Below the pieces are notes generated by a model. The model worked only from the letters and a program-made list of their open reading frames with translations, ran no database searches and was not told the origin of the DNA. The translations under genes and the position numbers were made by a program. From NCBI GenBank assembly GCA_021234155.1, contig JAJEKV010000011.1, positions 1,860,001 to 1,924,000 on the forward strand: DNA of 64,000 nucleotides. Direction: 5' to 3'. The number at the start of each line of letters is the position of its first letter. Positions within the stretch are counted from its first letter, which is position 1. Below, piece by piece: positions 601 to 50,514 of the stretch. Source of the stretch: Isoetes taiwanensis (lineage: Eukaryota; Streptophyta; Lycopodiopsida; Isoetales; Isoetaceae).

Positions 601-1165
601 CAGGGGTCATACGAGTGTGACCCTCCAGGGGTCATGGAAGGGGTTGGGGATTTAGGCATCCTAGGTGGTAAACTGGGCATGTGGGCATTCCTGATAGGAC
701 GCAATCGTCTGCGGCTATGATGGGACTAAGGCCTTCCTTACGCCGAGATGCATGCAAGCCCTAGCCATGATAGGACCCTTGCATTCATATTTCATTTTCT
801 TTAAGGGGTGGTCCCTTCAACCACATTACTTAACTTAATTCTTAACACACACCGACGTCTTCTGCAGGCCAGTAGCCGGTACCCTTGAGCTACCGAAGAC
901 TAGAGGCCTTGTGTTATGGGCCACAGTGTGTTTTGGATTCGATTTGTTTTTATCCTTGTATTTGGAAGTGGTTTTTGTTTAAACTTGTGTTTTTGAAGTG
1001 GATTTGGTTTTAAACTGTCTTAAAGGAATGCTCTTAATAGGACGTCTTCTTCTATTGTTTATCGAATGTAAACATTCGTACTTTCATAAATAAGTACTTT
1101 TGTTTTTTACTCTTCTCTTCAATAACTCTAATGCTGAGGACATCATTAATTTAAGGGGGGGAGAA

Positions 1166-2728
1166 TGTGACGTTCCAGGCATTTATACGGTATACGTATG
1201 CATGTCGGGACACATCACTGAGATATAAGGGGGTAATTGGCCAAGTGGAAGTCAACCACAATGGTTTTATTTAGCTATGTTAATAAATCCATTGTGGATA
1301 ATTATAAAGTATTTGGCCTAATTACCCTAATTAAGCTAAATTAGTTAATTAGCACCAATAAGGGGGCGCCACCTGGCCCAAATCGATTGGCCAGGGGGGA
1401 CCTTCCATTTTGGTCCTAGGAAAGGGGTCCTGCCCCATTCTGACTCCCCAAATTCGAATTGGGAGCTAAGGAGAAGCAGCAGTTATCAGCCAAGCTTGAG
1501 TTATCATCAACCACCCGCTAGCCTAGTGTGATGGACCCATACCGAGACCATGGCTCCAGCCAGGACACGGGTTAGTGTGTAGATACCTTGGTTTTCTTAG
1601 TTAGTCGTAGGATTAACCCTTGTTTGAGTAGGTGAATGGTTAATCTCTATTTTATGTTCTATTCAAGTTATGGATGGATGGATGGATGTATTAGCTTAGT
1701 TCTTTCCGTTCCTATGGTGTTGTTTGGGCTAAAGGGGTGGGTAGAGACCTAAAGGCCATTTAGTAGTAGAGATGCTCCTAGATAGAACCCCTAAAACCCT
1801 GTACTTGCGGCCTGTGCACAAGAGCCTACCTGGCTGTGGATGCTATGATGTGGTTCAGCACCAAACAACGGGTATGAAGGTGAATCGGGGATGGGGTCCC
1901 ACCTAGCGCGGCTACGGGACTCCTACAGTGTGCTAGACTTATAGCCAGTCACTGTGTGTGGGCTGGGTAAGGGTCTGACACTCCCTGGGCCGGAGGGTGG
2001 GAGCCTCTATGGCCGCCCTGGGCTCGAACGGGTTGGTGAGCTGACCTTTAGATTTAGGGGAGTAGGTCGGGTACGGATGCGGGGGTCACTGAGGGGGCAC
2101 GTGTCCTCTAGCGCACCCAGGGATCCGTCATACCCGGGGAGGGGACGCCTCCCTGACCTGCCTCATCGGACCGGGGAGATGTAACCCAGAGTAGTCCTGA
2201 AGGGTGATTCCTTGGGATTGCGTCTCCGGAGGGCTACAAGCATGTCATAGCATGATACAGCCTATCTGCAAAGTGTGCACAGGAGGGGCGGATGGAGTGG
2301 ACAACCCTAGCCATTGTCTTATGCCAGCCAACGCCATGTTATATCTCCGTCTGTTGATATCTTGAGACCCTGGCTGTCAGTTGATCCCTTGGAGTCTGAG
2401 CCCGGGGTAGTGCCTGTTATTGTGTTGTTTTATGTTGTTATGTATGGATTATCTTTGCCATGTTGATGAGGATGGGCCACCCTTCGTGGTGGTATATTAT
2501 TTGCATTACGACTGGATGCTAACGTATATGTATGCTTCCGCTGTAATAGGATTTCCCCATAGAGGACGTGGGGCGAATGACACCCTCCGTGATCCTCGTC
2601 CGGATACTTGGCCATCCCGAGTAGTCCGAGCATGACGGAGGGCCTTGCCGTGGTGATTTAGTCGCCATGGGAGGGGAAGTCCCGTATCTATACGATGGGA
2701 GCATCGTATGGACTCTGGGAGCGTCACA
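1166..2728 (+). mobile_element. Ty3/gypsy 3' LTR, copy 1
   Basis: The LTR begins TGTGACG and ends CGTCACA, a 7-bp terminal inverted repeat with the canonical TG...CA ends. A polypurine tract (1153-1165, mostly G then GAGAA) lies directly upstream, which marks this as the 3' LTR of a plus-strand element. The sequence downstream (CTTGTGG...) is not a primer binding site, which agrees with a 3' LTR. It contains GC-rich stretches shared with the minus-strand LTR at 13191-14618, so the two belong to related families. Length is 1563 bp. Confidence 0.85.
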
Positions 2729-3046
2729 CTTGTGGTGTCCATATTGTATGCCTTTTTGACATCTGCTAGGGCTCTGTCAACTACCTTTTCCATGATGACT
2801 GATCTGTCATTTTCATGCACTATATAAGTGTATTTGTGTATTTCAAATAATGTTTCACAAATGGAGGCAATTTCCTCCTTGAATGCTTTTCGTTCAAGCA
2901 TTCTGTTAGGTATGTGGTTTAACCCCTTTTTGAACATGCCTCTCAATGTCGTGTTGTGAATAATGCTTAAATCAGTGGTGCAAATATGCCCTGTTTGGCC
3001 ATCCAAAAACCTGCCAAGTGATTGGTTTTGGCATGGGCATTTAACC
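2729..3046 (-). pseudogene. Fragment of an unidentified ORF with a CPC motif, copy 1
   Basis: On the minus strand this encodes about 105 residues starting VKCPCQNQ and ending AYNMDTTS, where the LTR cuts it. The middle contains a GHICTTDLSIIHNTTLR block. From memory, blocks of the form GH(V/I)xTxDLSIIxNxxLRxLxxKG occur upstream of reverse transcriptase in some unusual eukaryotic retroelements, possibly Penelope-like, but I cannot confirm this. The fragment is nearly identical to the one at 5316-5633. Its upstream neighbour differs between copies, so only this part was duplicated. Confidence 0.5.
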
Positions 3047-3168
3047 CATGGGTCCTTGAGGCGGATTTGGATAAGACTTACCCAGACTTTATGAAGGAAT
3101 GCCATGGCCGCACCATCCACGATGACATCATCTCCAACTCAGATGGTAAGCACACCGTTATAGTGTGA
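3047..3168. other. Spacer between the two duplication units
   Basis: This 122-bp stretch has no counterpart after unit 2. A short open stretch is present on both strands, but I recognise no domain. It marks the break point of the duplication. Confidence 0.5.
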
Positions 3169-3733
3169 CAGGGGTCATACGAGTGTGACCCTCCAGGGGT
3201 CATGGAAGGGGTTGGGGATTTAGGCATCCTAGATGGTAAACTGGGCATGTGGGCATTCCTGATAGGACGCAATCGTCTGCGGCTATGATGGGACTAAGGC
3301 CTTCCTTACGCCGAGATGCATGCAAGCCCTAGCCATGATAGGACCCTTGCATTCATATTTCATTTTCTTTAAGGGGGTGGTCCCTTCAACCACATTACTT
3401 AACTTAATTCTTAACACACACCGACGTCTTCTGCAGGCAGTAGCCGGTACCCTTGAGCTGCCGAAGACTAGAGGCCTTGTGTTATAGGCCACAATGTGTT
3501 TTGGATTCGATTTGTTTTTATCCTTGTATTTGGAAGTGGTTTTCGTTTAAACTTGTGTTTTTGAAGTGGATTTGGTTTTAAACTGTCTTAAAGGAATGCT
3601 CTTAATAGGACGTCTTGTCCTATTGTTTATCGAATGTAAACCTTCGTACTTTCATAAATAAGTACTTTTGTTTTTTACTCTTCTCTTCAATAACTCTAAT
3701 GCTGAGGACAGCATTAATTTAAGGGGGGAAGAA

Positions 3734-5315
3734 TGTGACGTTCCAGGCATTTATACGGTATACGTATGCATGTCGGGACACATCATCACTGAGATATAAG
3801 GGGGTAATTGGCCAAGTGGAAGTCAACCACAATGGTTTTATTTAGCTATGTTAATAAATCCATTGTGGATAATTATAAAGTATTTGGCCTAATTACCCTA
3901 ATTAAGCTAAATTAGTTAATTAGCACCAATAAGGGGGGCGCCACCTGGTCCAAATCGATTGGCCAGGGGGGACCTTCCATTTTGGTCCTAGGAAAAGGGG
4001 TCCTGCCCCATTCTGACTCCCAAATTCGAATTGGGAGCTAAGGAGGAGCAGCAGTTATCAGCCAAGCTTGAGTTATCATCAACCACCCGCTAGCCTAGTG
4101 TGATGGACCCATACCGAGACCATGGCTCCAGCCAGGACACGGGTTAGTGTGTAGATACCTTGGTTTTCCTAGTTAGTCGTAGGATTAACCCTTGTTTGAG
4201 TAGGTGAATGGTTAATCTCTATTTTATGTTCTATTCAAGTTATGGATGGATGGATGGATGTATTAGCTTAGTTCTTGCCGTTCCTATGGTGTTGTTTGGG
4301 CTAAAGGGGTGGGTAGAGACGTAAAGGTCATCTAGCAGTAGAGATGCTCCTAGATAGAACCCCTAAAACCCTGTACTTGCGGCCTGTGCACAAGAGCCTA
4401 CCTGGCTGTGGATGCTATGATGTGGTTCAGCACCAAACAACGGGTATGAAGGTGAATCGGGGATGGGGTCCCGCCAGCGGCTTCTACGGGACTCCTACAA
4501 AGGTGCTAGACTTATAGCCGATCCACCGTGTGTGGGCTGGGTATGGGTCTGACACTCCCTGGGCCGGAGGGTGGGAGCCTCTATGGCCGCCCTGGGCTCG
4601 AACGGGTTGGTGAGCTGACCTTTAGATTTAGGGGAGTAGGTCGGGTATGGATGCGGGGGTCACTGGGGGGGGCACGTATCCTCTAGCGCACCCAGGGATC
4701 CATCATACCCGGGGAGGGGACGCCTCCCTGACCTGCCTCCTCATCGGACCGGGAGATGTAACCCCTGAGTAGTCCCCCTCAAGGGTGATTCCTTGGGATT
4801 GCGTCTCCGAGGGCTACAAGCACGCCATAGCATGATACGTGACCCTATCTCGCAAAGTGTGCACAGTGAGGGGCGGATGGAGTGGACAACCCTAGCCATT
4901 GTCTTATGACAGCCAACGCCATGTTATATCTCGGTCTGATTGATATCTTGAGACCCCGGGCCGCCGGGCTGATCCCTTGGAGTCTGAGCCCGGGGTAGTG
5001 CCTGTTATTGTGTTGTTTTATGTTGTTATATATGGATTATCTTTGCCATGTTGATGAGGATGGGCCACCCTTCGTGGTGGTATATTATTTGCATTACGAC
5101 TGGATGCTAACGTATATGTATGCTTCCGCTGTCATAGGATTTTCCCATAGAGGACGTGGGGCGAATGACACCTCCGTGATCCTCGCCCGGATACTTGGCC
5201 ATCCCGAGTAGTCCGAGCATGACGGAGGGCCTTGCCGTGGTGATTTAGTCGCCATGGGAGGGGAAGTCCCGTATCTATACGATGGGAGCATCGTATGGAC
5301 TCTGGGAGCGTCACA
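3734..5315 (+). mobile_element. Ty3/gypsy 3' LTR, copy 2
   Basis: It has the same TGTGACG start and CGTCACA end as copy 1, again preceded by a polypurine tract (about 3721-3733). It is 1582 bp long, 19 bp more than copy 1 because of small indels. The first bases after the LTR (CTTGT) would be one side of the 5-bp target-site duplication; the other side is not in the window. Confidence 0.85.
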
Positions 5316-5633
5316 CTTGTGGTGTCCATATTGTATGCCTTTTTGACATCTGCTAGGGCTCTGTCAACTACCTTTTCCATGATGACTGATCTGTCATTTT
5401 CATGCACTATATAAGTGTATTTGTGTATTTCAAATAATGTTTCACAAATGGAGGCAATTTCCTCCTTGAATGCTTTTCGTTCAAGCATTCTGTTAGGTAT
5501 GTGGTTTAACTCCTTTTTGAACATGCCTCTCAATGTCGTGTTGTGAATAATGCTTAAATCAGTGGTGCAAATATGCCCTGTTTGGCCATCCAAAAACCTG
5601 CCAAGTGATTGGTTTTGGCATGGGCATTTAACC
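5316..5633 (-). pseudogene. Fragment of an unidentified ORF with a CPC motif, copy 2
   Basis: This encodes the same roughly 105-residue minus-strand product as copy 1 (2729-3046), with a Gly-to-Glu change in the block after LRGMFKK. The reading frame is cut by the LTR right after MDTTS. Upstream on the minus strand the frame continues openly to 5674. It may be the 3' portion of the minus-strand transcription unit that starts near 9780, but no splice chain connecting them could be proven. Confidence 0.5.
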
Positions 5634-5676
5634 TCTCGGTCAGTGGCAAAGATAAGATATGGTTTATAGCACATAC

Positions 5677-6165: not shown

Positions 6166-7713
6166 CTAGGTGTTGAACTCCAGTGCCTGTGCCAGAGCAG
6201 CATCCTTGTGGTCGATAACCGAAACATTTTTAGTGACTGAATGTCCAGCCTGGTCAGGTGTGCATAGACTCTCCACTGTAGCACTTTCACATGCCTTGGT
6301 ACCACCTGCACTTGGGGCAACAGTGAGTCTCGGGGGCTGTGTAACCTTGCTCTGCGAGCTGCTACCAATGCTTGCAAACGTCTTTCTCGTGGACCTGCTA
6401 CGGTTGCTATAAGCTGCTCTTGGTGTTTTCATGAAGGTCACGTGTTTGATAGTTTTTTCACAAATGTCATTCATTTTGTTTCTCGGCTTTGTAATCATGA
6501 AGTCAGCCCATGGATCCTCTGCTAAGAACCTGGTCATATCCAGTAGAGAACTCCTGATTTCAAGATAGGCCAGATATGCCATGATGCTCTTTTTAAAGGT
6601 GGTTTTGAGCATGTTTCTGAAAGAGAACATTTGAACAGCACAAGACATGTTGGGAAATAAGGAATCGAGGTTGTTGAACATGTACCATACCGCGTGATCA
6701 AGCTACGTCATGTTATCCCTGCACCCGTTTTCCTTGGATCTGTTGGCCCTATTTCCTCCTCTTGGTGATTCACAACCGCATTTCAGGTATGAGCACATGG
6801 TCCTCCAAAGCTTTTTGAGGTAAAAGTCATCACGCCTTTCTGTAGGATAGGCCATATGGCTTTTTTGACTGACATATATGAAGGCATCCTTGTTGCATGT
6901 TTTATCAAAGAATTTGCAGTCAATCATGATTTTGATTTTGTCTTTCTTTACTATCTTCTCCATTTTTTCTGCTGCTGCCTTTGTGGCAGCAAGTTGGGCT
7001 GGTGTAATATCTCCCAATATGATCCAGACCTCCTTACTGATTGGGGCAAGGGCGCCAAAGTTCTTTGACCGCCAAATCCCTTGATTGTACAGTTTACTTT
7101 GACATTCAACAAGCCTTTCAGGCATGATCGGATAAAGCATGCATTTATTGAGGGTAAATTGAAACTCATTGTCATTATCCCCAAGCATATTGGCATTGAT
7201 CTTAAGCAATTCCTTATCTTCCTCCGAGAGTAGAGCATCACCAAATGGGTCATCCTCTTTGTTTTCTTGTTCAAATTTTATAATGCTTTCTTCACCATTC
7301 TCCTCCTTTACATCGTTAGCAACTTTCAGTGCCACTACCCCTTTTAAATATTCTGCCTTGCACTTGTCCTCTTCCATGGTCCATTGGTAGATTTTTCCAG
7401 GTAGGGTCTCGTATATGCTGTTGACTATGATACCAATATCCTTGCTGGTAGCCTTGTTAAGGGCCGGAAATATTTTGATCCACTCGCTACACCCCATATG
7501 CGAGACAGCTGAGAACTCTCCAGATTTCCTAAGTGCCTCTTTTTCATGGATAAGTTCGTGTGCATCCATGTTTTTGATGCAGCTGAGAATAGTCTGCACT
7601 GCTTTGTTTGGGCATTCCATTTTGCTGGCTGCATAACCTAGAGCAGTTAGCTCCTTGTTCCAAGTTGGTGGGACAATCTCGAATTCCACTTCATCAATGT
7701 ATTTGTTTTCTTC
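6166..7713 (-). pseudogene. Unknown nuclear-type protein, large exon with one internal TAG
   Basis: A minus-strand frame of about 515 codons starts at a clear acceptor (CTGTATTACAG before GAAGAAAAC at 7713) with EENKYIDEVEFEIVPPTW. It ends at TAG (6168-6166) after LEFNT. It is open except for one TAG at 6705-6703, between DNMT and LDHAVWYMFNNL; the same frame continues on both sides. The protein has an acidic stretch (KEENGEESIIKFEQENKEDD), a Lys/Ala-rich segment (AATKAAAEKMEKIVKKDK), a cysteine pair in YLKCGC, a basic segment and a Ser/Thr-rich tail. No known domain is recognised. The frame is in phase with the exon at 9780-9451, so one gene is likely. Whether the TAG kills it or lies next to an unseen intron is open. 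Confidence 0.55.
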
Positions 7714-10717: not shown

Positions 10718-10915
10718 CTATGCATGGGGGAGTTCTACGAATGAAGGGCCTATCTTGGCTTGGAACTTTGTCATGATGTCTTGATAGAATGGTGTGGCGT
10801 TTATGATAGCATCGACACCAATCTCCTTTTGGAAAACAATGAAGACAGAATTGATGTCAACCTCTGCCACACGAGCAGTGGCGCTGTACCATCGCCTGAA
10901 TGAAGAAGTGGTCAT
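10718..10915 (-). CDS. Small ORF with a promoter like that of the H3-like gene
   Basis: This encodes 65 residues from ATG at 10915 to TAG at 10720-10718; a TGA follows four codons later in the same frame. The protein begins MTTSSFRRWYSATARV and contains VFIVFQKEIGVDAIINATPF. I do not recognise a family; a faint resemblance to the first helices of histone H2B is too weak to use. Its main interest is the upstream region: a TATA box, TTAGGG/AACCCTAA motifs and two copies of a 63-bp imperfect palindrome at nearly the same spacing as in front of the H3-like gene at 12683-11554. It could be intact, truncated by the TAG, or a relic. Confidence 0.45.
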   Translation of the reverse strand: MTTSSFRRWYSATARVAEVDINSVFIVFQKEIGVDAIINATPFYQDIMTKFQAKIGPSFVELPHA

Positions 10916-11003: not shown

Positions 11004-11064
11004 ATGCAAATGAGGGTGGTGGTCATATTTATAGGCAGAACCCTAATTTGCGAAATTTTTAGGG
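11004..11064 (-). promoter_or_regulatory. Core promoter of the small ORF
   Basis: On the minus strand there is CCTATAAATA (11035-11026), 111 bp before the ATG. Telo-box-like motifs flank it upstream (AACCCTAA at 11064-11058 region and TTAGGG at 11045-11040 region). ATTTGCAT lies just downstream at 11011-11004. The TATA box is followed at 110 bp upstream by the first palindromic element. Confidence 0.55.
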
Positions 11065-11144
11065 TTTGAAAATGTCTATCACTTCAAGGTCCTACTAGGT
11101 ATTTGATAGATAATCTAGAGTTATGACATCTAAAGTACTTCCTA

Positions 11145-11207
11145 CTCACACAGTGCACAAGAGCCACTTTCAAAATTTTTGAAAAGGGTCCTGGCGCACT
11201 CTGTGAG
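11145..11207. repeat. Palindromic promoter element, copy 1
   Basis: This is an imperfect inverted repeat with outer arms CTCACACAGTGC and GCACTCTGTGAG around a core TTTCAAAATTTTTGAAA. It lies 110 bp upstream of the TATA box of the small ORF. Homologous copies are at 11349-11411 and 12909-12966. Confidence 0.75.
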
Positions 11208-11348
11208 GGGTGGGCTCCTATTTGGATCATAGATGACTCTAAAATTTTGGTACGAAGGCAGAATCCTACTTATCTCATGGAGTTAAGCTGGGCTCTGCAC
11301 TTGTTTTCTGATTTTGGATATATCTAGGTATAGATCAGTGGCCAAATA

Positions 11349-11411
11349 CTCACACAGTGCGCGAGTGGCACTTTCAAAATTTTTGAAACGGGTCCTAGTG
11401 CACTCTGTGAG
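11349..11411. repeat. Palindromic promoter element, copy 2
   Basis: It has the same arms and core as copy 1 and starts 204 bp further from the small ORF. The inner arm differs slightly (GCGCGAGTGGC). The two copies sit in otherwise different sequence. Confidence 0.72.
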
Positions 11412-11553
11412 AGGTGGGGGTCTATTCAATCATTTTTTGGCCAAATTAATTAATACAACACATGCCATTAATACAACCATATTAACTACATTATTACACT
11501 TTGCAACTTAATTAAAACACTTTTTATATTTACAAAAATTTATAAGTACATGT

Positions 11554-12683
11554 TTAACAATTTTCTTTCTTTATAAATTTGGCCAGCTTCATATCCCTGG
11601 GCATGCACGTGACTCTTTTCGCATGTAGAGCATATGCTAGAGAGTCTTCAAAATGCTGCATCAGCTTCTGCTCGGCTGTCTCTTGTAATGCAAGCAACAT
11701 GTCGTCTGTTACTCGCTTCTCCTTGTCGAACTCTTGAAATATCTCACCTCTCAATCTTGCAAATGCAGCTCTTGGGATAAGAAGTCCATAGCTCTGCTAG
11801 AAGTGCCAAATCTCCTGAGAAGCTTTAACAAAGTATGAGTCTGTCTTCCGCTTCATGGGCTTCTTTGGTGGTACGGGTCTCGCTGGGGGCGGCTTCAAAG
11901 TGTTCTCTTCTGTTGGCCTTCCTCCTTCCACGTACGTCACCTTATTTTCTTCATAGTACTTGGAGTATGCCTCGTACATCTTCATGTACTCCTTGTACTC
12001 CCGCAGCTTCTTCTTGTACTCTAGCTCATGCTTGAATACATATGACTCCTATGCCGGCTTGACCTTCTTGGGATCTGTTGTTGCCTTTGGCCATGTTGGG
12101 TAGGGAAGTGGTGCTGCAGCTTCTTGGTTCTCAGGATTGGAAGGTCCCGATCCTTCCGTCAGCCGGGGAATCCTCCAAGCATCATTGTCCGACTCTGTTT
12201 CAGATGAAGATGATGACGACCTACCGGGCTCCCGCTCTGTTATTTTGACCCATTTGCTTGGTGTGCTCTTGGTTTTCCTCCGGGATTTCTTCGGCAGCTC
12301 TGGGTCTTTTCCTTTTTTCTCTCTCTATTTCTGGCATTCCACCTTCTCTACAAGTCTCTTTCTTTTGGCTGCCCTCTTCCGCTTGCCGACTTTCTTTTGA
12401 CGATGGCGCAGATCCTCTGTTGCTGCATGGTCCTCTTCATTCTCCTTCTCCTCGTCCCCAAGTTCATGATTCTCCGGGTTCTCTTGCTGATCAGGGTCTT
12501 TTGGTGCTCTTGTTGATCCTGATGTTGCTCGTTGTCCTCCTGGGTGCCATGATTTGGGTTTAAAGTTTCTTCATTTCCGGCTCACTCTCAAGCCTCCCTC
12601 GCCTTCTGTTCTGCATCGAGAACTTGGACGCTTATAGATCCATATGGCATAACCACTCTAGCAGTCTGTTTGGTGCGGGCCAT
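11554..12683 (-). pseudogene. Histone H3-like gene with a very long N-terminal tail, broken
   Basis: The minus strand starts at 12683 with MARTKQTAR, identical to the first residues of canonical H3 after the initiator Met. After a frame change around 12600-12570, a second frame encodes about 285 charged residues: a basic patch (GKRKRAAKRKR), a run of serines next to acidic residues, a Tyr/Lys-rich segment (ELEYKKKLREYKEYMKMY), and a Pro-rich linker. It then ends in an H3 fold: QEIWHF, LLIPRAAF, RLRGEIFQEF, ALQETAEQKL, HFED, ALHAKRVTCMPRDMKLAKFI, stopping at TAA (11556-11554). These align colinearly with H3 αN to α3. In-frame stops are TGA at 12573-12571 and TAG at 12327-12325, 12051-12049 and 11799-11797. 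The last TAG falls where H3 has a conserved Gln (REIRRYQKS). The canonical H3 tail beyond residue 8 is not kept. It is a decayed gene or an unusual one; homology to H3 is very sure. Confidence 0.88.
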
Positions 12684-12775: not shown

Positions 12776-12815
12776 ACCCTAAGGGTCTATTTATAGGTCT
12801 GGGAGTGTTAGGGTT
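12776..12815 (-). promoter_or_regulatory. Core promoter of the H3-like gene
   Basis: On the minus strand CCTATAAATA lies at 12797-12788, 105 bp before the ATG. An AACCCTAA telo-box sits just upstream (12813-12808 region), with a second TTAGGG-type motif on the other side. The layout matches the small ORF promoter (TATA 111 bp before its ATG). Confidence 0.6.
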
Positions 12816-12908
12816 CTGACTTGCAATTCCATGCTATGCCATTATTTAAAACATTAGTGTTTGCTGGCTTAAGACATTAGGTTCTTTTAGACAAAAATTA
12901 CTGCTACC

Positions 12909-12966
12909 ATTCACAGCGAGAGGCACTTTTAAAATTTTTGAAAAGGGCCTGGGCACACTCTGTGAG
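12909..12966. repeat. Palindromic promoter element, copy 3
   Basis: This is the third copy of the element at 11145 and 11349, with arms TTCACAGC and CACACTCTGTGAG around TTTTAAAATTTTTGAAAA. It lies 112 bp upstream of the TATA box of the H3-like gene, against 110 bp at the small ORF. Confidence 0.7.
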
Positions 12967-13176
12967 GGGTTACACTCCCTAATGGCCAACTTTTTTCTGG
13001 GTTTCTAATTTTTCTTTCCTAATTAACATTATCTTAATTTATTGTTCTAAGGATTGGAATTTTTTTTCCCAAATTTTGAGGTTCATGCTTGGGTTGTTAT
13101 CCCCAAGACTGAAGGCCTACTGTTAGTCCTATCAGGAGCATTTAGTTAGTGCCCGATCTTAGTCTACCAAGGTCAT

Positions 13177-13190
13177 AGCTCTGATACCAT
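13177..13190 (-). other. Retrotransposon primer binding site (tRNA-iMet type)
   Basis: The minus strand reads TGGTATCAGAGCT immediately after the LTR end, the standard plant retrotransposon site complementary to the 3' end of initiator tRNA-Met. The retroelement leader continues towards lower coordinates, but no gag was found there; within 200 bp the H3-like promoter region begins. Confidence 0.85.
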
Positions 13191-14618
13191 TGTGACATCC
13201 CCTACTTCGTCTACGATGCTCCCATCGTATCGGAAGGCAGAGTTCATCCCCATGGCAGCCAAGCTGACAGAGGCCGTCCACCTAACACCAATCCCTTGGC
13301 AATAAATCGATGAGGAAGAATGGACGGGTCATTTGTCCCTTCTTACCTCGGGACCGTCCTAGTTGTGGAAGCGTAAATAAATATAAACACATGACATCAA
13401 ATATAAATAGAGCCACCTCGAAGGGTAGCTAACCATAACATACATGTATGAGGACATCAATAACATCATCAACAATAGGAGATCCTACCCAAGGCTCAGA
13501 CTTCAGGGGTATGGACTGACGGTTTGTATCTTCAGAAGTCATCGCAGACAGAATTCATGTTAATGGATTGGGCTGGCATAGGAACGTGGTTGTTGGAAAG
13601 TCCTTTCCATCCGCCCCTCTTGTACATACTTTGCAAAATATGTTAAAGAGTCTTAAGGACTGGACCCTAGCCTGCCGAGTGCATAGCCAAGGGGGCTACT
13701 AATGGGTTTCATCTCCCAGCCCCGATGAGGCAGGAGGGGGATCACCCCCTCCAGAGGTACGCATGCCCATCACAGGCGGCTAGAGGGCCACTGCTCGTCT
13801 ACGACTTGAATATCATGGAAGGCGACGCATCACCCAAGAGGTGTCGAGCCCATGCCTTGCCCACACGCAGTGGCAAGCCATTAGGCCTAGCCTGCTAAGA
13901 TTCCTGGTAGGCTTTACACACCAAAGGGATTGATCTGCAATGGGACATGTCCTCCTTATCCATCGGTCTAGCCTCGTCACTCACAACTAGGCAGGCTCTT
14001 ATGCACAGGCCACTTTAATTGGGAATTAATGAGGCTGTCTAGCTACATCATCATTCAAGAACTGAAATACAGAATACCATCTAATCTATCTACCTAAACG
14101 TACATAGTTCGGTTCTTTTGTTAGGGCTTGTGATCTCAAAAACTATAAGGCCGCTAAGGCTAATCTAACATGCTATCCCAGCTCATTGCTAGGCTAACAG
14201 TCGGCATTGTGCAACAGAATCATTGTTTACCTGATCCCTGGCTTGCTCTCACACCTTGAATCGCATCCATGCCTTTGCTTGAGTCGAAGGCAGCTGAACC
14301 TGGAAGATCTGTCGTGCAAAGTTGCTTGACAACGTCTGGCAATGCGGACTAGCAGCTTGGCTTGACTGGAATATCCCAAAGAAACCGAAATGCAAAAATG
14401 GAAAAGGTTTAGGGTTTTCCCTTTTGTTCCTTTTACATGACCTTTTAGGTTTAGGGTTAAAAGGACATATGGGGTTTTGCCATGAGGCAAAGGGGTTAAA
14501 TGCATATGTTTATAGACATGTGCAATATACGAGGTTGCCCCTAGGCGCAACCCTTTACGGTTCCCAAGTACATGTCATCAAGGTGACATATATGCGTGGC
14601 GTGGCAATATAATATACA
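13191..14618 (-). mobile_element. Ty3/gypsy 5' LTR, minus orientation
   Basis: Read on the minus strand, the LTR ends ATGTCACA directly before the primer binding site. Several blocks match the LTRs at 1166 and 3734: GGCCTGTGCA(T/C)AAGAGCCT, the block near GTGTGGGC, CTGCCTCATCGG and AGGGGCGGATGG. It is therefore a diverged relative. The outer boundary at 14618 is placed where a gag fragment is interrupted (CAGCAA then TGTATATTA) and is tentative. No partner 3' LTR is seen in the window. Confidence 0.7.
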
Positions 14619-29023: not shown

Positions 29024-29870
29024 AATCTTTCTTCCGCCCGGTTCTGCTCTAGATTTCTGTCCTAATACACGGTGCAGAGGGTTATAAACAGAGCAGTCAG
29101 TGCATAACTCAAATGAATTATCACAATTCACGGAAATGTGGAATATGGGTCATCGGCAGCCTCGCCACAATGCTTTCAATGGCTTTCATGTCACGGCATG
29201 ATTTAGCAGAGTGCGAAAACACAGGCTGCAAATTATCATCCTTTTGTTTCGACTCGACTCTGTACATCAGAAGCAATCCAAGCACTAAGCGGCCACTCTT
29301 TTTGCCCTGCCTTATGGATTTTATTTTCCCTTCTTTGGCTCTGTTCTTCCACATCACCGCTTTATTTGGGCAACACAAACACAGTATTCTTGGCTTTGCG
29401 AATCCACAGGTCCCCTCTCTCTCCTTACTCATATGTCTGCAGATTGACTGAAGCTTTCCCGGCCCTGTGTGCACAGCTTGGAAATCCGGCAAAGAACGCC
29501 CAAAGGCTTCCATAGATCTTCGCTATAGGCGACCTCTTGCCATGCAGTGCAGGCGCAGGCGCAGGCCGTCATGGCGTATTATTCAAGCAAGGAGTATTAT
29601 TCAAGCAAGGATTTACCTGCGGGATTTTCGAAAGATGTTCCGATGGAGTTTTAAGTCCTCGAACTCCACCACAGATGCAGAGATGCAGATTCCACAGGAT
29701 CTGGCAATGGCTTCTTGTACTGCAAAACAAGACCGGACCATTTCTGTTCTTACCGAGATCATAGATTTGATCATAGTAGGTACGCAGTGGGATTTTTCTT
29801 TCAAGCAAGAAGATAGATCCTGCATCAAGAATGTGGGCTTTTAGATCTGCAAGGAAATGGCAATATCGCC

Positions 29871-30164
29871 ATGGCGGGCTCTGCGACAAGCTCTAGATAT
29901 GAAGCTTCCGTTTCATTTATCAAAAGTTTGAGATCTTTAGCTCAAGAAAGCGAAAGCGAAAAGCTGAGGATGGTTGAAGAAGGATTGCCTGCGAAGCTTG
30001 TTTCCACGCCTATTTCCGGTGAAAGTAGTAAAGCTAATCCGTCAATCAGAGACGCCAAGGCTTGTAAAGGCATAAAAGCTCTGTTAGGTTTGTGCCTTTC
30101 AAAAGAAAACAGAGGCGTAGATGTGAAGGCCGGAGCTGTGGAAGCTGTGAAAACAGAGGCGTAG
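29871..30164 (+). pseudogene. ARM-repeat/U-box E3 ligase-like fragment, copy A
   Basis: A 97-residue frame begins MAGSATSSRYEASVSFIKSL and contains KIRMVEEGLPA-type and IKALLGLCLSKENRG-VDVKAGAVEAV segments. This resembles the armadillo region of plant U-box proteins of the CMPG1/PUB20 type, which have ALxxLCLxKxNRxxAVxAGAV. A 38-bp internal duplication (GTGAAGGCCGGAGCTGTG) truncates it at TAG. No U-box is visible upstream. It is probably a relic exon; the family call is moderate. Confidence 0.45.
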
Positions 30165-30554
30165 CTGTGAAGGCCGGAGCTGTGGTAAGCATGATTTTAA
30201 GCATTTCTGATCGCGAAACAGAGTATGCTGCCGAAAGAAAAAGCTATGGCATACCTGTGCCTTTTTCGATCTAAGGAGAGATTAACAGAGCCGGAGAAGC
30301 AATACTGCGGCTTCAACAACGGCGCTCTTCAACAACGGCTTCGCCATAGCCAGCCACGATTTCGTGAGTGTACCAAATTTCTTCTTCTCAAAAGGTATGT
30401 ACCAAATCTCCCCCCTTTTTAATTTGAAATTTCGCAAAATCTCCCCCCGTTTTCAATTTCAAATTTCTAACTTAAGAGGTGGGAGAAAAAAAAAGCCAAA
30501 TATTAAGAGAAAAAAGCAGAATAATAATAGAGTGTACGTAAGAAAAAAAATACG

Positions 30555-30917: not shown

Positions 30918-31229
30918 AGAAAAAAAAATACGGATAGTGGACAATGGGTTATTTTTCTAAGGTTAATGGGTTATTTTTCTAAGGTTAATGGGAAAAAAAA
31001 GCTGGTTACATTAATATATTATAAACACACCATTAATTGGGCTATAATTTTATTAGTGTCGCCCATGTAAATATTTGAATTTTTGTCACAAATTGATAGC
31101 ATGGTTGTGTTTATATGTGTGCTTGTATAATCATACTTTAGACCTTAGGTAAAAATTTAACTTTGTGAAGATCATGATATAATTTACACCTTGTTTAACC
31201 CATTTTGAAGGTTCTTGACACAAAATGGG

Positions 31230-32016: not shown

Positions 32017-33829
32017 AATCTTTCTTTCGCCCGGTTCTGCTCTAGATTTCTGTCCTAATACATGGTGCAGAGGGTTATAAACAGAGCAGTCAGTGCATGA
32101 TAACTCAAATGAATTATCACAATCTCACGGAAATGTGGAATATGGGTCATCGGCAGCCTCGCCACAACGCTTTCAATGGCTTTCATGTCACGGCATGATT
32201 TAGCAGAGTGCGAAAACACAGGCTGCAAATTATCATCCTTTTGTTTCGACTCGACTCTGTACATCAGAAGCAATCCAAGCACTAAGCGACCACTCCTTTT
32301 GCCCTGCCTTATGGATTTTATTTTCCCTTCTTTGGCTCTGTTCTTCCACATCACCGCTTTATTTGGGCAACACAAACACAGTATTCTTGGCTTTGCGAAT
32401 TCACAGGTCCCCTCTCTCTCCTTACTCAAATGTCTGCAGATTGACTGAAGCTTTCCCGGCCCTGTGTGCACAGCTTGGAAATCCGGCAAAGAACGCCCAA
32501 AGGCTTCCATAGATCTTCGCTGTAGGCGACCTCTTGCCATGCAGTGCAGGCGCAGGCGCAGGCCGTCATGGCGTATTATTCAAGCAAGGAGTATTATTCA
32601 AGCAAGGATTTACCTGCAGGATTTTCGGAAGATGTTCCGATGGAGTTCTAAGTCCTCGAACTCCACCACAGATGCAGAGATGCAGATTCCACAGGATCTG
32701 GCAATGGCTTCTTGTACTGCAAAACAAGACCGGACCATTTCTGTTCTTACCGAGATCATAGATTTGATCATAGTAGGTACGCAGTGGATTTTTCTTTCAA
32801 GCAAGAAGATAGATCCTGCATCAAGAATGTGGGCTTTTAGATCTACAAGGAAATTGGCAATATCGCCATGGCGGGCTCTGCGACAAGCTCTAGATATGAA
32901 GCTTCCGTTTCATTTATCAAAAGTTTGAGATCTTTAGCTCAAGAAAGCGCAAGCGAAAAGCTGAGGATGGTTGAAGAAGGATTGTCTGCGAAGCTTGTTT
33001 CCACGCCTATTTTCGGTGAAAGTAGTATAGCTAATCCGTCAATCAGAGACGCCAAGGCTTGTAAAGGCATAAAAGCTCTGTTAGGTTTGTGCCTTTCAAA
33101 AGAAAACAGAGGCATAGATGTGAAGGCCGGAGCTGTGGAAGCCGTGAAAACAGAGGCGTAGCTGTGAAGGCCGGAGCTATGGTAAGCATGAATTTAAGCA
33201 TTTCTGATCGCGAAACAGAGTATGCTGCCGAAAACCTGTGCCTTTTTTGATCTAAGGAGAGATTAACAGAGCCGGAGAAGCAATACTGCGGCTTCAACAA
33301 CGACGCTCTTCAACAACGGCTTCGCCATAGCCAGCCACGATTTCGTAAGTGTACCAAATTTCTTCTTCTCAAAAGGTATGCACCAAATCTCCCCCCTTTT
33401 TAATTTCAAATTTCGAAAATCTCCCCCCGTTTTCAATTTCAAATTTCTAACTTAAGAGGTGGGAGAAAAAAAAAGCCAAATATTAAGAGAAAAAAGCAAA
33501 ATAATAATAGAGTGTACGTAAAAAAAAATACGGATATTGGACAATGGGTTATTTTTCTAAGGTTAATGGGTTATTTTTCTAAGGTTAATGGGAAAAAAAA
33601 GCTGGTTACATTAATATATTATAAACATACCATTAATTGGGCTATAATTTTATTAGTGTCGCCCATGTAAATATTTGAATTTTTGTCGCAAATTGATAGC
33701 ATGGTTGTGTTTATATGTGTGCTTGTATAATCATACTTTAGACCTTAGGTAAAAATTTAACTTTGTGAAGATCATGATATAATTTACACCTTGTTTAACC
33801 CATTTTGAAGGTTCTTGACACAAAATGGG
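32017..33829 (+). repeat. Large direct repeat, copy B
   Basis: This is the second copy of 29024-31229 without the 363-bp retroposon. It shares the same end point ACAAAATGGG, after which copies diverge (GACAAGTAC here, TCCCTGACT in A). Confidence 0.9.
32868..33161 (+). pseudogene. ARM-repeat/U-box E3 ligase-like fragment, copy B
   Basis: This is the same 97-residue frame as at 29871-30164 with a few substitutions (QESAS for QESES, GLSAKL for GLPAKL, GIDVKAG for GVDVKAG). The same internal duplication and stop are present, so truncation preceded the segmental duplication. Confidence 0.45.
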
Positions 33830-43900: not shown

Positions 43901-45129
43901 ATGAGCAATTTCCAGCCCCATGATAAAGTTTTAGAAGTGGTTGCTGGATTGCAAGCAAATTTTAAAACGCTTCCCTTTTCTTTTCTTTACAACAAACGGG
44001 GATCGGATTTGTTTGATGAGATTACTACTTTGAAGGAATATTACCTCTTTGAAGCAGAAAAGAAAATGTTGGATGTTCATGCTAATGAAATAGCCTCTTA
44101 TGTCGATCCTGGAAGTGTCATAGTAGAGCTTGGATGTGGATCCGCCCAAAAAACAGCTAGGCTTCTTTCCGCAGTACCTAAGAGGTACGTATTCAGATAT
44201 AAATTTGGAAATTCTTCTTTGCACGATGTTTTCTAATTTATCAACCTTTTAATATGTTCATTCTAGAATGTTATATGCCTCTAATAAAGTGGTGTTTGTA
44301 AATGTAATCTGCAGTTGCACATTTGTTGGAATTGATGTCTCCAAAAGTGCTCTATTACAAGCTAGAAAGAACTTGGAAAGGAATTTCCAAGGTGAGATTG
44401 ATTTCATAGAAGCAGAATATATGGAAGGGTTAAGACAAGTGAAGAAACGATATCCCCACCATGTCTTATGTGTCATTTGGCTTGGAAGTAGCATAGGGAA
44501 CCTTTCTCAAAAAGAAGCAATATCATTTCTTAAAGATATTCGGGTTGTATGTGGTTCTAGATGCCTTCTTTTTCTGTGTACAGGTGATATTTTATCTTCT
44601 AATCTCATCATTCCACTTGCATTCAACAATTTCTTAATTAACTTTTCAACTTGCTGTAGACATTTGGAAAGACTCGCATACCTTAATTTCAGCATACCAT
44701 GATAGCAAAGGTATTACGGAGAATTTCATAAAAAATGGCGTTCAGAATGCTCTAAAGTTCATTGGTTATGACCATAATACTTGTGAGGAGAAATCATGTG
44801 TTTATGAGGTCGAGGTAAACCAAAAATTAAGACAGGTTGAGATGTACATTAAGTTCATGGAAGGCTTAGAGATTGGACAATGGAATATTTGCATTAGGTA
44901 TGCAATTTCTAGGTTTATGCTTGGCTTCACTATTTATTTACATCTTTTGTATTGTTGAATATGTTGCAGGCCTGGAGAGCGTGTTCTAGTTGAAATTTCT
45001 AGAAAATTTACATCGAATGATATCCAATTTTTTGCTAATGAGTCAGGTTTTCGAGTTCAAGCATCATGGCATACATCAACTTATGGTTGCCAGTGGCTAT
45101 TTCCCCTCAATTCCAACAAATTAGGTTAA
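43901..45129 (+). CDS. EgtD-type histidine N-alpha-methyltransferase homologue, four exons
   Basis: Exons 43901-44184, 44315-about 44582, about 44661-44898 and about 44971-45129 join in frame at standard GT-AG introns (donors AG/GTACGT, ACAG/GTGATA, ATTAG/GTATGC; acceptors CTGCAG, CTGTAG, TTGCAG). The roughly 310-residue product is the usual length of free-standing EgtD. Motifs in order: YNKRGSDLFDEIT and EYY; SAM-binding VELGCGSAQKTARLL; GIDVS; IWLGSSIGNLS; AYHDSKGITENF; and C-terminal LVEISRKF. EgtD methylates histidine three times to hercynine with SAM, the first step to ergothioneine. The residues I recall as contacting histidine (two N-terminal Tyr, Asn of GN, Tyr of AYxD, Glu and Ser of ExS) all appear conserved. 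There is no EgtB-like domain. No disruption was seen. The actual substrate in this organism is not shown. Confidence 0.9.
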
Positions 45130-47338: not shown

Positions 47339-47350
47339 GGAACCCGAACC

Positions 47351-49012
47351 TTGAAGGTTCTTGTATGGAATGTCAGAGGAGCAAATGAGGCGAGGTTACA
47401 TGCATCAAATGAAATCTCGAAAAATCAAGATCTTGTGCTAATGTGTGAGACATGGCAACACCAATTCAATTCGTTACCACAAATGGATAATTTCCAATTA
47501 ATTGGCGCAGCATGGAACGAAAAGACTACAACAAAAGGAAGAGGTCATGGAGGCTTAGCAGCATACATCAGAAAGGATCTTGCACATCTGGTTAGTTTGC
47601 AGTCTAAGCATGAGTTTAACAGTTACTTATGGATCAAACTCTCATTGCATCAACACCATGTGTATATAGCTGTATGTTACCTGCCGCCTGCACCAGTAAA
47701 AAGCAACATAAAGCAGAAGCATGACAGTGAAAGCGTCTTTAGCTCACTAAGTAACGATATCAGAGCATATCAAGCGCTGGGTGAGATCCTTTTGGTTGGA
47801 GATTTCAATGCAAGAACAGCTAATATGCAATCAGTGACCTATGACACATCGAATGATCTCTTTCTGGACGAATCACATGATGTCTCCTTCACACGTAACT
47901 CGGCAGACCTTGGTACCAATCAGCAAGGCTCACAGTTGTTAGAACTTGGAACAGTATGCGATCTAAAGATCCTAAATGGGATAGCAAAGTATCCAAACTC
48001 AGCTGCAAACACTTGCTTTACATATACAGGAGCTTCGGCAGTAGACTATGCTCTTGCCAAAGACCCAAACATAATTCACTCTTTTGCAATTGGAGAGAAG
48101 GCACCAGAATCAGACCACGCTCCATTGCTCTTGGAGATTCAGATGCAAAACCATGAGAAGCCAGATGCATTTAAAAGACAGCCCAGATTCAAAATAGATT
48201 ATAAGAAGAGCGAAGCATACAAAAAGCGTTTAGACGAGAAGCTAGAAGACGCCGATTGGCAGGATAACGTTGAGCAAGACTCAAGGCTCATATCAGGTTT
48301 TATTGCAGCAGCAGCACATGAAATTTTTGGCCAAACAAAGAGCACTTGTAGGCGAAAACCATGTAATAGCTGGTGGGATTTGGAATGCAAAGAAGCGAGA
48401 TCAAAGCTTCCACAAGGATGCATTAAGAAGCCACGATGGTACAAGAATTTGCTAAGAAGCAAAAAGAGAGCCTTCATGCATAAGAAACAGGAAGATTTAA
48501 GTAAAAGGCTATCGGAAAATCCCAAAGCCTTTTGGAATACGATCCAGAAGAAACCAGCTCAACATAGTCTAAATATGGATGACCTTGCACAACTAGTTAA
48601 TTCAGTATATAATTGCCCAGAAGCAAACAGCATGGCAGCAGTAGAATGTAAAGAGGACATCTTCACAGTAGAAGATATCAGTTTTGCTCTTAAACACATG
48701 GCTAATGGGAAGGCACCCGATTTGGAGGGCATATGTATAGAGTTATTGAAATGGAGCAGCAAGAAGACATTGCAAATAGTAACAGACATGTTGAATCAGG
48801 CAGTAAAGAATGGTCTTCCAGAGGCTTGGAAACTAAATAGGGTCCACCCGATCCATAAATCAGGAGACAAAATGAATGCAAGCAATTATAGGCCCATCCT
48901 AATAGGAAGCACCTTTTCCAAGTTGTTAGGATCACTCCTGGAGAAAAAGTTGAGCGCATATACAGAATGGCTTAAGATCACTGTACCAGGCTGGTTTCAG
49001 GCAGAACCATAG
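47351..49012 (+). CDS. LINE ORF2, endonuclease and start of reverse transcriptase
   Basis: This 553-codon frame begins KVLVWNVRGANEARL. The endonuclease/exonuclease/phosphatase fold is marked by CETW, LLVGDFNAR (about residues 140-150) and SDHAPLL (about 255). Then come WWDLECKEARS and an RT start (MANGKAPDLEG, NRVHPIHKSGDKMNASNYRP). It ends by a frame change after the SKLL...EKKL segment; the RT continues in another frame at 49010. Confidence 0.9.
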   Translation: MKVLVWNVRGANEARLHASNEISKNQDLVLMCETWQHQFNSLPQMDNFQLIGAAWNEKTTTKGRGHGGLAAYIRKDLAHLVSLQSKHEFNSYLWIKLSLHQHHVYIAVCYLPPAPVKSNIKQKHDSESVFSSLSNDIRAYQALGEILLVGDFNARTANMQSVTYDTSNDLFLDESHDVSFTRNSADLGTNQQGSQLLELGTVCDLKILNGIAKYPNSAANTCFTYTGASAVDYALAKDPNIIHSFAIGEKAPESDHAPLLLEIQMQNHEKPDAFKRQPRFKIDYKKSEAYKKRLDEKLEDADWQDNVEQDSRLISGFIAAAAHEIFGQTKSTCRRKPCNSWWDLECKEARSKLPQGCIKKPRWYKNLLRSKKRAFMHKKQEDLSKRLSENPKAFWNTIQKKPAQHSLNMDDLAQLVNSVYNCPEANSMAAVECKEDIFTVEDISFALKHMANGKAPDLEGICIELLKWSSKKTLQIVTDMLNQAVKNGLPEAWKLNRVHPIHKSGDKMNASNYRPILIGSTFSKLLGSLLEKKLSAYTEWLKITVPGWFQAEP

Positions 49013-49571
49013 CACATTAGACCATGCTCTTGCATTGAGGGTCTTGATTGAAAGGGCTAAAAGGCCAAGGAATGCATTGTTTCTGGGATTCATAGATTTT
49101 ACAAAAGCATTCGATAAAGTGCCCAGAAAAGATTTAAGAGAAAGAATGGAGCAGTTGAATATCCCTCAATCAATCAGAGGGGCAGTATCCAAACTATATG
49201 CGGAAGTAAAAGTGAAATTATCCAGGGATATGGACTTGGAAATTCCCAGCACCATAGGAGTCCGTCAAGGATGTCCATTATCTCCTACTCTCTTCGGATT
49301 GTATATTGATGAACTTGATGCATGGCTAAAAGAGAATAACAGGGCAGGCACCCGGTTGGGAGATTATGTAGTCCAGTTACTACTGTATGCTGATGACGTA
49401 GTACTCATTGCAGATAAAAAGGAAGGGCTGCAAGCACATCTCGACAGAGTGGCACTCTTTTGCAAAGCAAGGCATATGCAGGTTAATTTGACAAAATCAA
49501 AAATCATGGTTGTAGGCATTTATGACAGGCCAACTTTTTTCTATCAAGGAGAGGAGCTCGAGACAGTTTAA
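49010..49571 (+). pseudogene. LINE ORF2, reverse transcriptase core
   Basis: This contains GFIDFTKAFDKVPR, GVRQGCPLSPTLFGLYIDEL and the catalytic LLLYADDVVLIA, the RT motifs A, B and C of non-LTR elements. Catalytic aspartates are present. It lies one frame off from the segment before and after, so two single-base indels separate the parts. Confidence 0.9.
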
Positions 49572-50514
49572 GTATTTGGGCATTGATTTTTTAGCCAAGT
49601 ACTCATGGACAGAATGCATTAAAAGACGTGTAACAGGAGGCAAGGCGGCTCTTTTCAGCATGCTTTCGAAGTGTTATAATACATCTCTTCAGCAATGGGG
49701 GCTTAAAAAACTCTTATTTAAAACTTTGGTGCAGACAGTAGTGCTCTATGGAGCACTGATTTGGGGGCCGGGCGCAACAAGCAAGCATTGGCAACAGATA
49801 GAGCAAGTGTTAAAGCTATTCATAAGAGAGGAGCTGGGCGTTAAGGCAGAAACACCATATGCAATCTTATTGGCAGAAACAGGGTTAATTCCACTAGAGG
49901 CAGAAGCCCTCTTCCAGACTATAAACTTTGTAAATCGGGTGTGGCAGCAGAATGATGAGAGGCTTTCAAAGCAAGCATTGCTGCATTCTATGGACTCAGG
50001 GTGGTATAAGGATGTGCTGAATTGGGCACGACGTTGGGGGATAGATCTAGCGAGCTAGCCTGACACGGAAGCGGGTGCTAGAGATCTCATACAACAAAAG
50101 GCACTGGAACGAATATGGCTAAAAAAAGGTACCAGAATGACCTTTTATTCCGCTGAAATAAATCCGATGCTCACATATACGGATCAGCAGTATGTAAGAT
50201 TGCATATTCCCCTGTTCTTGAGAAAAATAATAGCACGCTATAGAACATGCTCACATCATTTAAATATTGAGACAGGGAGATGGGCTTCGGTGGCACGAGA
50301 AGAAAGAATATGTACTTTATGTGACTGGCACGAGGTTGAAGTTGAGCAGCACGTCTTATTGGATTGTTCAGCATACCAAGACATTAGAGCAAAATTTCAC
50401 ATAGATGCAAACAATCTATATATGTTGTTCGATATGGATCCATCAAGTTTAGGTCCATATCTTAAATCGGTAGAATCACATCGAGATTTATTGATAAAAG
50501 TAAATACTCTGTAA
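49525..50514 (+). pseudogene. LINE ORF2, thumb and C-terminal Cys-rich region
   Basis: It starts at FKYLGIDFLAKYSW, then runs to KTLVQTVVLYGALIWGP and ends with ARYRTCSHHLNIETGRW and ERICTLCDWHEVEVEQHVLL plus DCSAY, a CxxC...HxxxxC knuckle typical of LINE C-termini. One TAG (50056-50058) interrupts the frame between GIDLAS and PDTEAGARD. The end is TAA at 50512-50514. Confidence 0.85.

Follow-up and report, generated by a model that had tools for sequence, protein, structure and literature searches.

A Ty3/gypsy chromovirus of Isoetes taiwanensis carries a long-tailed histone H3 gene under purifying selection

Introduction

Core histones are usually regarded as the property of the host. DNA viruses with histones include polydnaviruses, Marseillevirus and Medusavirus; the case described here shares with them a genetic parasite equipped with a core histone and differs in that the parasite is an LTR retrotransposon. 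LTR elements with extra open reading frames (ORFs) are covered, in the portion of the text accessible to us, by a review (PMC7264820). Plant chromoviruses, as presented in the accessible part of Neumann et al. 2019 (PMC6317226), have LTRs, a tRNA-type primer site, gag, RT-RNaseH-integrase and a chromodomain at the end of pol in common with the Isoetes element, which differs by adding three ORFs before gag, the first of them encoding a long-tailed H3. In that same part, the word 'histone' occurs once, as the target of chromodomains. Gypsy elements of Phalaenopsis carry an ORF for an AlkB-type 2-ODD and resemble the Isoetes element in that a host-type gene was captured, kept over many copies and is apparently useful; the product is an RNA demethylase there and a core histone here (PMC9289625, accessible part). 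The extra domains listed in the accessible part of that article for 121 angiosperm genomes are PMD, G-patch, AIR1, DUF1409, YgdH, KOW, B3, ArgoL2 and 2-ODD; no histone is named, and lycophytes lay outside the screen. The literature searched, in which coverage of subscription journals and bioRxiv was thin, yielded no report of a retrotransposon-encoded histone, and 'histone' is absent from the main text, as far as accessible, of the genome papers on I. taiwanensis (PMC8566536) and I. sinensis (PMC10541799).

Results

A decayed element copy with a broken long-tailed H3 gene

The window, i.e., the entire stretch of 64,000 nucleotides of I. taiwanensis DNA analyzed here (contig JAJEKV010000011.1, positions 1,860,001 to 1,924,000), contains the features compiled in Table 1. 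ORF1 starts with MARTKQTAR, continues with a long charged middle and ends with an H3 histone fold, its frame closing with ..KKENC at 11557. An exact H3 N-terminus, a long inserted tail, an H3 fold and a length of about 375 residues had all been claimed in a sequence-only reading, and each of these points was borne out. With X at the stops, the histone frame matched PF00125 in Pfam with 57.2 bits (E 2.5e-15). The last 80 residues, which are free of stops, gave 54.8 bits (E 1.5e-14) on their own and an E value of about 1e-13 against solved H3 chains. Structure prediction for these 80 residues from the single sequence returned one long helix (mean pLDDT 77.2, pTM 0.41) and was uninformative, and the two pieces of the histone gene had no match in PHROGs.

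As had also been noticed, the gene is broken: its N-terminal part and the segment between about 12501 and 11557 are read in different frames, the former interrupted by two TGA stops, the latter by three TAG stops. Stops of these types would be compatible with a decay of methylated cytosines. Locus L036 contains one uninterrupted relative of this ORF, of which residues 1-136 match window positions 12683-12264 with 33% identity and residues 62-385 match positions 12501-11557 with 65%. Because this open ORF matches both parts, the window ORF1 was formerly a single ORF and not a chance junction. K9 and K27, reported as lost in the sequence-only reading, are indeed absent from it.

Table 1 Features of the element copy in the window
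Feature	Position in window	Strand	Remark
5' LTR of element copy	13192..14575	-	matches L043/L030 at 77-84%; outer end approximate
Primer-binding site TGGTATCAGAGC	13178..13189	-	same site before H3 fold at other loci
Hairpin repeat D1 upstream of ORF1	12902..12981	-	folding z-score only -1.37
TATA-like box before ORF1	12788..12797	-	such a box also in 9/12 D relatives
ORF1, long-tailed H3 gene	11554..12683	-	broken: one frame change and five stops
MARTKQTAR	12657..12683	-	start of ORF1, first residue at 12683
H3 histone fold with alpha-N part, PF00125 stretch	11581..11889	-	Pfam and solved H3 chains
Hairpin repeat D1 after ORF1	11347..11426	-	folding z -3.69
Hairpin repeat D1 after ORF1, second copy	11143..11222	-	folding z -3.71
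TATA-like box before ORF2	11026..11035	-	leader similar to ORF1 leader
ORF2 start, truncated	10718..10915	-	78% over 51 residues to L054, E 6.8e-22

The gene was originally taken for a plant H3 variant; its surroundings assign it to an LTR retrotransposon instead, as documented by LTR, primer site and the gag and pol context of its relatives. The inner end of the LTR (..TGTCACA) immediately precedes the primer site, which we take to be the complement of the tRNA-Met 3' end; the outer LTR end was set from the start of the alignment (14558) and is inexact. Compared with loci L043 and L030, identity is 77-84% for the LTR and 5' region and 69% for the ORF1 region. The two D1 copies after ORF1 are imperfect palindromes, the folding of which beats all 200 shuffles (z about -3.7). 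When the leaders of ORF1 and ORF2 were aligned, a score of 41 was obtained against a mean of 22.0 (sd 4.1) for 500 shuffles, at least one of which also reached 41. The L054 match of ORF2 is the ORF that follows the H3 gene of that locus. A likeness to the ORF2 of subfamily A (see below) was noted by eye and homology was not found on alignment; PHROGs gave weak matches for the window ORF2 (best E 0.025). Neither Rfam families nor tRNAs were found on scanning the window. The window copy retains the 5' LTR and the primer site but no second LTR, stops inside ORF2 and is followed by neither gag nor pol: it represents a Ty3/gypsy chromovirus of subfamily D in truncated and decayed form.

An endogenous giant virus, considered on account of the repeated promoter and hairpin, was rejected once LTR, primer site, gag and pol had been found. 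Scans of viral contigs with the fold, with ORF2 and with the D1 pattern brought up no relative.

Architecture of the complete element

One copy, composed of locus L018 and the neighboring L029, could be read from LTR to LTR. Over about 13.2 kb it comprises LTR, primer site, H3 ORF, ORF2, ORF3, gag, pol with chromodomain and LTR. Its two LTRs are 91.6% identical and flanked by ACTGC and ACCGC, which agree in four of five bases and constitute a candidate target-site duplication. The gag gene encodes a Ty3_capsid domain (E 3.5e-17). In pol, RVT_1 (E 1.3e-38) is accompanied by RNaseH and integrase parts, among which rve, with 30.6 bits, stays slightly below its cut-off of 32.6 and the others exceed theirs, and by a chromodomain (PF00385, 37 bits, E 3.3e-9). 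The two ORFs between the H3 ORF and gag (L018:5017-5909 and 6612-7130) are conserved in L016 and L023, as judged by eye, and had no match in Pfam. Elements of subfamily D possess a gag with 54-55% identity to that of subfamily A, and the integrase-chromodomain region of the D locus L054, which is broken by stops and contains a nested LTR-like piece (by eye and tblastn), is 50% identical to its A counterpart. With paired LTRs, primer site, the order of gag and RT-RNaseH-integrase, and a chromodomain, the element is a Ty3/gypsy chromovirus. Placement with Tat/Ogre was considered and dropped because pol carries a chromodomain.

By eye, the chromodomain (L029:330-3176) retains the central Trp and seemingly lacks the first and third cage residues, a loss that the accessible part of PMC6317226 describes for type II chromodomains. 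Direct reading of H3K9 methylation by the element is doubtful, because two of the three aromatic-cage residues seem to be missing.

The H3 gene recurs between primer-binding site and gag

The genome (1,658,258,908 bases in 1110 contigs) was searched in six frames with PF00125, and the best 150 of 8705 candidates were scored, all above cut-off. Judged by score (164-165 bits), the first 15 of these are canonical H3, with frames of 139-232 codons; eight were read. The other 135 reached 144.5-154.7 bits, 36 of them in frames of at least 400 codons. Searching with the window fold, for which the best 150 of 7431 candidates were scored, returned the window itself and 149 others with 70-84% identity, many of them containing stops. 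The genome contains many dispersed long-tailed H3 frames and not a lone plant gene. Intact relatives had been anticipated in the sequence-only reading, and open long-tailed H3 ORFs were found in the same genome, with PF00125 in all four that were scanned.

These searches bear on the notion that a single host H3 gene came to lie by chance beside an LTR and was broken later. Although the window copy, with neither gag nor pol behind it, could be read in this way, its LTR, 5' region, ORF1 and ORF2 align in order with other copies, and its 149 relatives among the best 150 of 7431 are dispersed. Because the LTR-ORF1-ORF2 order is common to other copies, a lone host gene is refuted, and we grant it next to no probability.

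Twenty stretches of 9 kb were read around long frames picked from the PF00125 search. The fold resides within a frame of 288-494 codons in all 20, and the primer site TGGTATCAGAGC precedes it in 16 (15 exact, one with a mismatch) and was not found in four. As the loci were chosen for long open frames, intact copies are over-represented. For an approach from the opposite side, 117 gag places, the best of 15214 candidates, were scored. With the 137 H3-fold places from the PF00125 search (two canonical by score), at least 15 of the 117 are preceded by a fold on the same strand at no more than 6 kb, and in 14 cases the distance is 2.6-2.8 kb; shifted gag places gave a mean of 0.055 links and a maximum of two in 200 trials. 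A list of 135 places from a search with a CENH3 query linked at least 25 of the 117, 22 of them at 2.67-2.77 kb (shifted control: mean 0.04, maximum 1). The union of both lists amounts to at least 37 gag places with an upstream H3 fold, and to at least 44 when the loci read are added.

Gag places were also sampled at even steps of rank, and 10 of the 15 were read. ORF1 homology is present upstream of gag in nine: it extends to the fold in eight, five of which match in several frames, and is confined to the N-domain of ORF1 in L047. No ORF1 was found upstream of gag in L048. Half of the ten show decay, through matches in several frames or in another way. Two of the remaining five places are linked to a fold by the lists. 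Within this lineage of elements, the H3 ORF is repeatedly found at the same position, which lies between the primer-binding site and gag.

Different forms of ORF1

ORF1 occurs in at least two forms, which start with MPRFKLT or MSRFKLT in subfamily A, ME..KQVY in B, MANTK in C (represented by one locus) and MARTKQTAR in D. Subfamilies A-C combine an N-domain, shared with about 42-44% identity between them, with a nearly canonical fold that is 84-89% identical to H3 (PF00125, 141-144 bits for one ORF each of A, B and C). In the D form, to which the window copy belongs, MARTKQTAR is followed by a charged tail and a fold that has diverged to 47-55% identity with H3 (65.9-76.3 bits for the four scanned ORFs); its N-terminal region gave no match to the A-C N-domain.

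Twelve D relatives were picked from the window-fold search, mostly by long frames. MARTKQTAR is exact in seven and differs by one or two changes in four (one of them a stop); no such start was found in the twelfth. Among the first nine codons of the eleven and the window, 21 of 108 deviate synonymously and five non-synonymously. Five D loci are open from the start to the end of the fold, and the four scanned ORFs have 378-414 residues, three beginning with MARTKQTAR and one with MARTKQTTR. In 9/12 relatives, the ATG is preceded at 110-113 bp by a TATA-like box, one mismatch being allowed, and D1-like repeats are located before ORF1 in 9/12 and after the fold in 12/12. Box and repeats hint at a separate ORF1 transcript in D.

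The canonical H3 tail with K4, K9 and K27 is whole in none of the subfamilies. D keeps K4 only; A-C are devoid of the K4 peptide, and A and B keep a K14-like TGGK or TAGK. Residues R49, R63, R69, R72, R83, D106, C110, H113, R116 and T118 presumably touch DNA or the second H3. Nearly all H3 contact residues are retained in A-C. In the D relatives, R49, R69, D106 and R116 are kept in 12/12, R83, C110 and H113 in 11/12, and R72 and T118 in 10/12; R63 is lost in all twelve.

Purifying selection on ORF1

ORF1 is under purifying selection. Median pairwise dN/dS for the fold is 0.042 in A (90 pairs), 0.016 in B (10 pairs) and 0.078 in D (39 pairs), compared with 0.011 for host H3 (20 pairs); pairs are not independent, those with very low or saturated dS were left out and copies with open frames were chosen. 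When the sequences were recut, the fold gave 0.044 in A, 0.015 in B and 0.074 in D, and the other parts of the A protein gave 0.109 (N-domain), 0.234 (linker) and 0.150 (basic tail). Values are higher between forms (A-D 0.203, D-H3 0.170). Within subfamily A, to which this comparison is limited, the fold (0.044) is as constrained as gag (0.060, seven loci).

These values also speak to the idea of a captured passenger histone that is amplified by the element and useless to it. Such a fate would be in line with the statement, in the accessible part of PMC6317226, that the eORFs found in plant LTR elements are for the most part heterogeneous and functionally uncharacterized. With dN/dS far below 1 in three subfamilies and ORF1 at nine of ten sampled gag places, a passenger is already disfavored and appears very improbable to us.

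Relation of subfamily D to CENH3

In phylogenetic trees, A-C were placed beside host H3 and D beside plant CENH3, the latter grouping with support values of 96/88, 88/91, 96/98 and 92/95, based on provisional reference sequences and with long branches. Forcing A-D into one clade gave p values of 0.039, 0.073, 0.043 and 0.199 in the AU test. Because of the provisional references and the long branches, two captures, of H3 in A-C and of CENH3 in D, are suggested rather than shown. H53-F54, P63 and T85 of D are also present in the Arabidopsis CENH3 reference (likewise provisional); H53-F54 are not shared with the maize reference. D further differs from plant CENH3 in lacking the GTVAL stretch and in residing in a mobile element. 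Its loop 1 has H3 length in the alignment and not the greater length seen in CENH3, which argues against D as a CENH3. D is tentatively regarded as CENH3-like. A host CENH3 was not recognized among the best 150 places of the CENH3-query search, the top 15 of which are canonical H3 by score and place.

Other features of the window

Positions 601-3054 and 3169-5641 form a direct repeat of about 2.5 kb (96.7%) containing stretches similar to the D LTR, and a piece at 3049-3150 resembles the pol end of the element (E 1.7e-6). The two repeat units are perhaps the LTRs of a related element minus its inside. Another direct repeat, of 1.5 kb (96.7%), occupies 29024-30554 and 32017-33532, with an additional 310-bp repeat pair at 30920 and 33520. 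On the plus strand, an ORF at 44253-44702, perhaps a host exon, encodes a histidine-specific methyltransferase domain (PF10017, E 3.7e-14, EgtD-like), and broken LINE-like ORFs at 47339-50514 encode an endonuclease domain (PF03372, E 1.3e-7) and, by eye, a reverse-transcriptase-like part further on.

Discussion

The best explanation as a whole, with a probability of roughly 0.7, is a chromovirus with a selected long-tailed H3 as ORF1, the product of which would have a role in chromatin. Because A-C, and for the most part D, preserve the residues that contact DNA and H3', we infer that this product would be a nucleosome-competent, element-made H3. It would then pair with H4 and enter nucleosomes. 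The replaced tail, which in D has neither K9 nor K27, might shelter the chromatin of the element from H3K9/K27 silencing or, alternatively, give integration a chromatin address, and the exposed ARTKQTAR end of D may draw H3K4 writers or readers; judged from the mostly synonymous deviations in its first nine codons, K4 mimicry by the D ORF1 is possible. For this proposed mechanism as a whole, we consider the odds to be somewhat short of even. Counting against a role in nucleosomes, D has lost R63 in 12/12 relatives and its fold retains only 47-55% identity with H3. A farther-reaching version, in which histones were taken up twice (H3 in A-C, CENH3 in D), the nucleosomes that the elements build from them resist silencing and steer integration, and ARTKQTAR serves as H3K4 bait, is in our view unlikely.

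Instead, the H3 protein could act in the particle or the pre-integration complex and leave host nucleosomes without lasting change, either by compacting the cDNA or by providing nuclear import or chromatin docking via H4 or histone chaperones. Histones carry nuclear import signals, ORF1 adjoins gag and is under similar constraint, and its tails are long and charged, all of which would suit such a function. On the other hand, hardly any nucleosomal contact residue has been lost in A-C, a degree of conservation that a docking peptide should not require, and the TATA box of D hints at separate expression. We regard a role confined to the particle as a rather unlikely, yet serious, competitor to the chromatin role of the element-made H3.

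An element equipped with its own H3 and a chromodomain would bring a building block of chromatin as well as a domain of the reader type. With it, one can directly test whether mobile elements modify nucleosomes so as to evade silencing or select sites. For annotation, there is a risk that element ORFs of this kind are mistaken for 'H3 variants' in lycophyte genomes.
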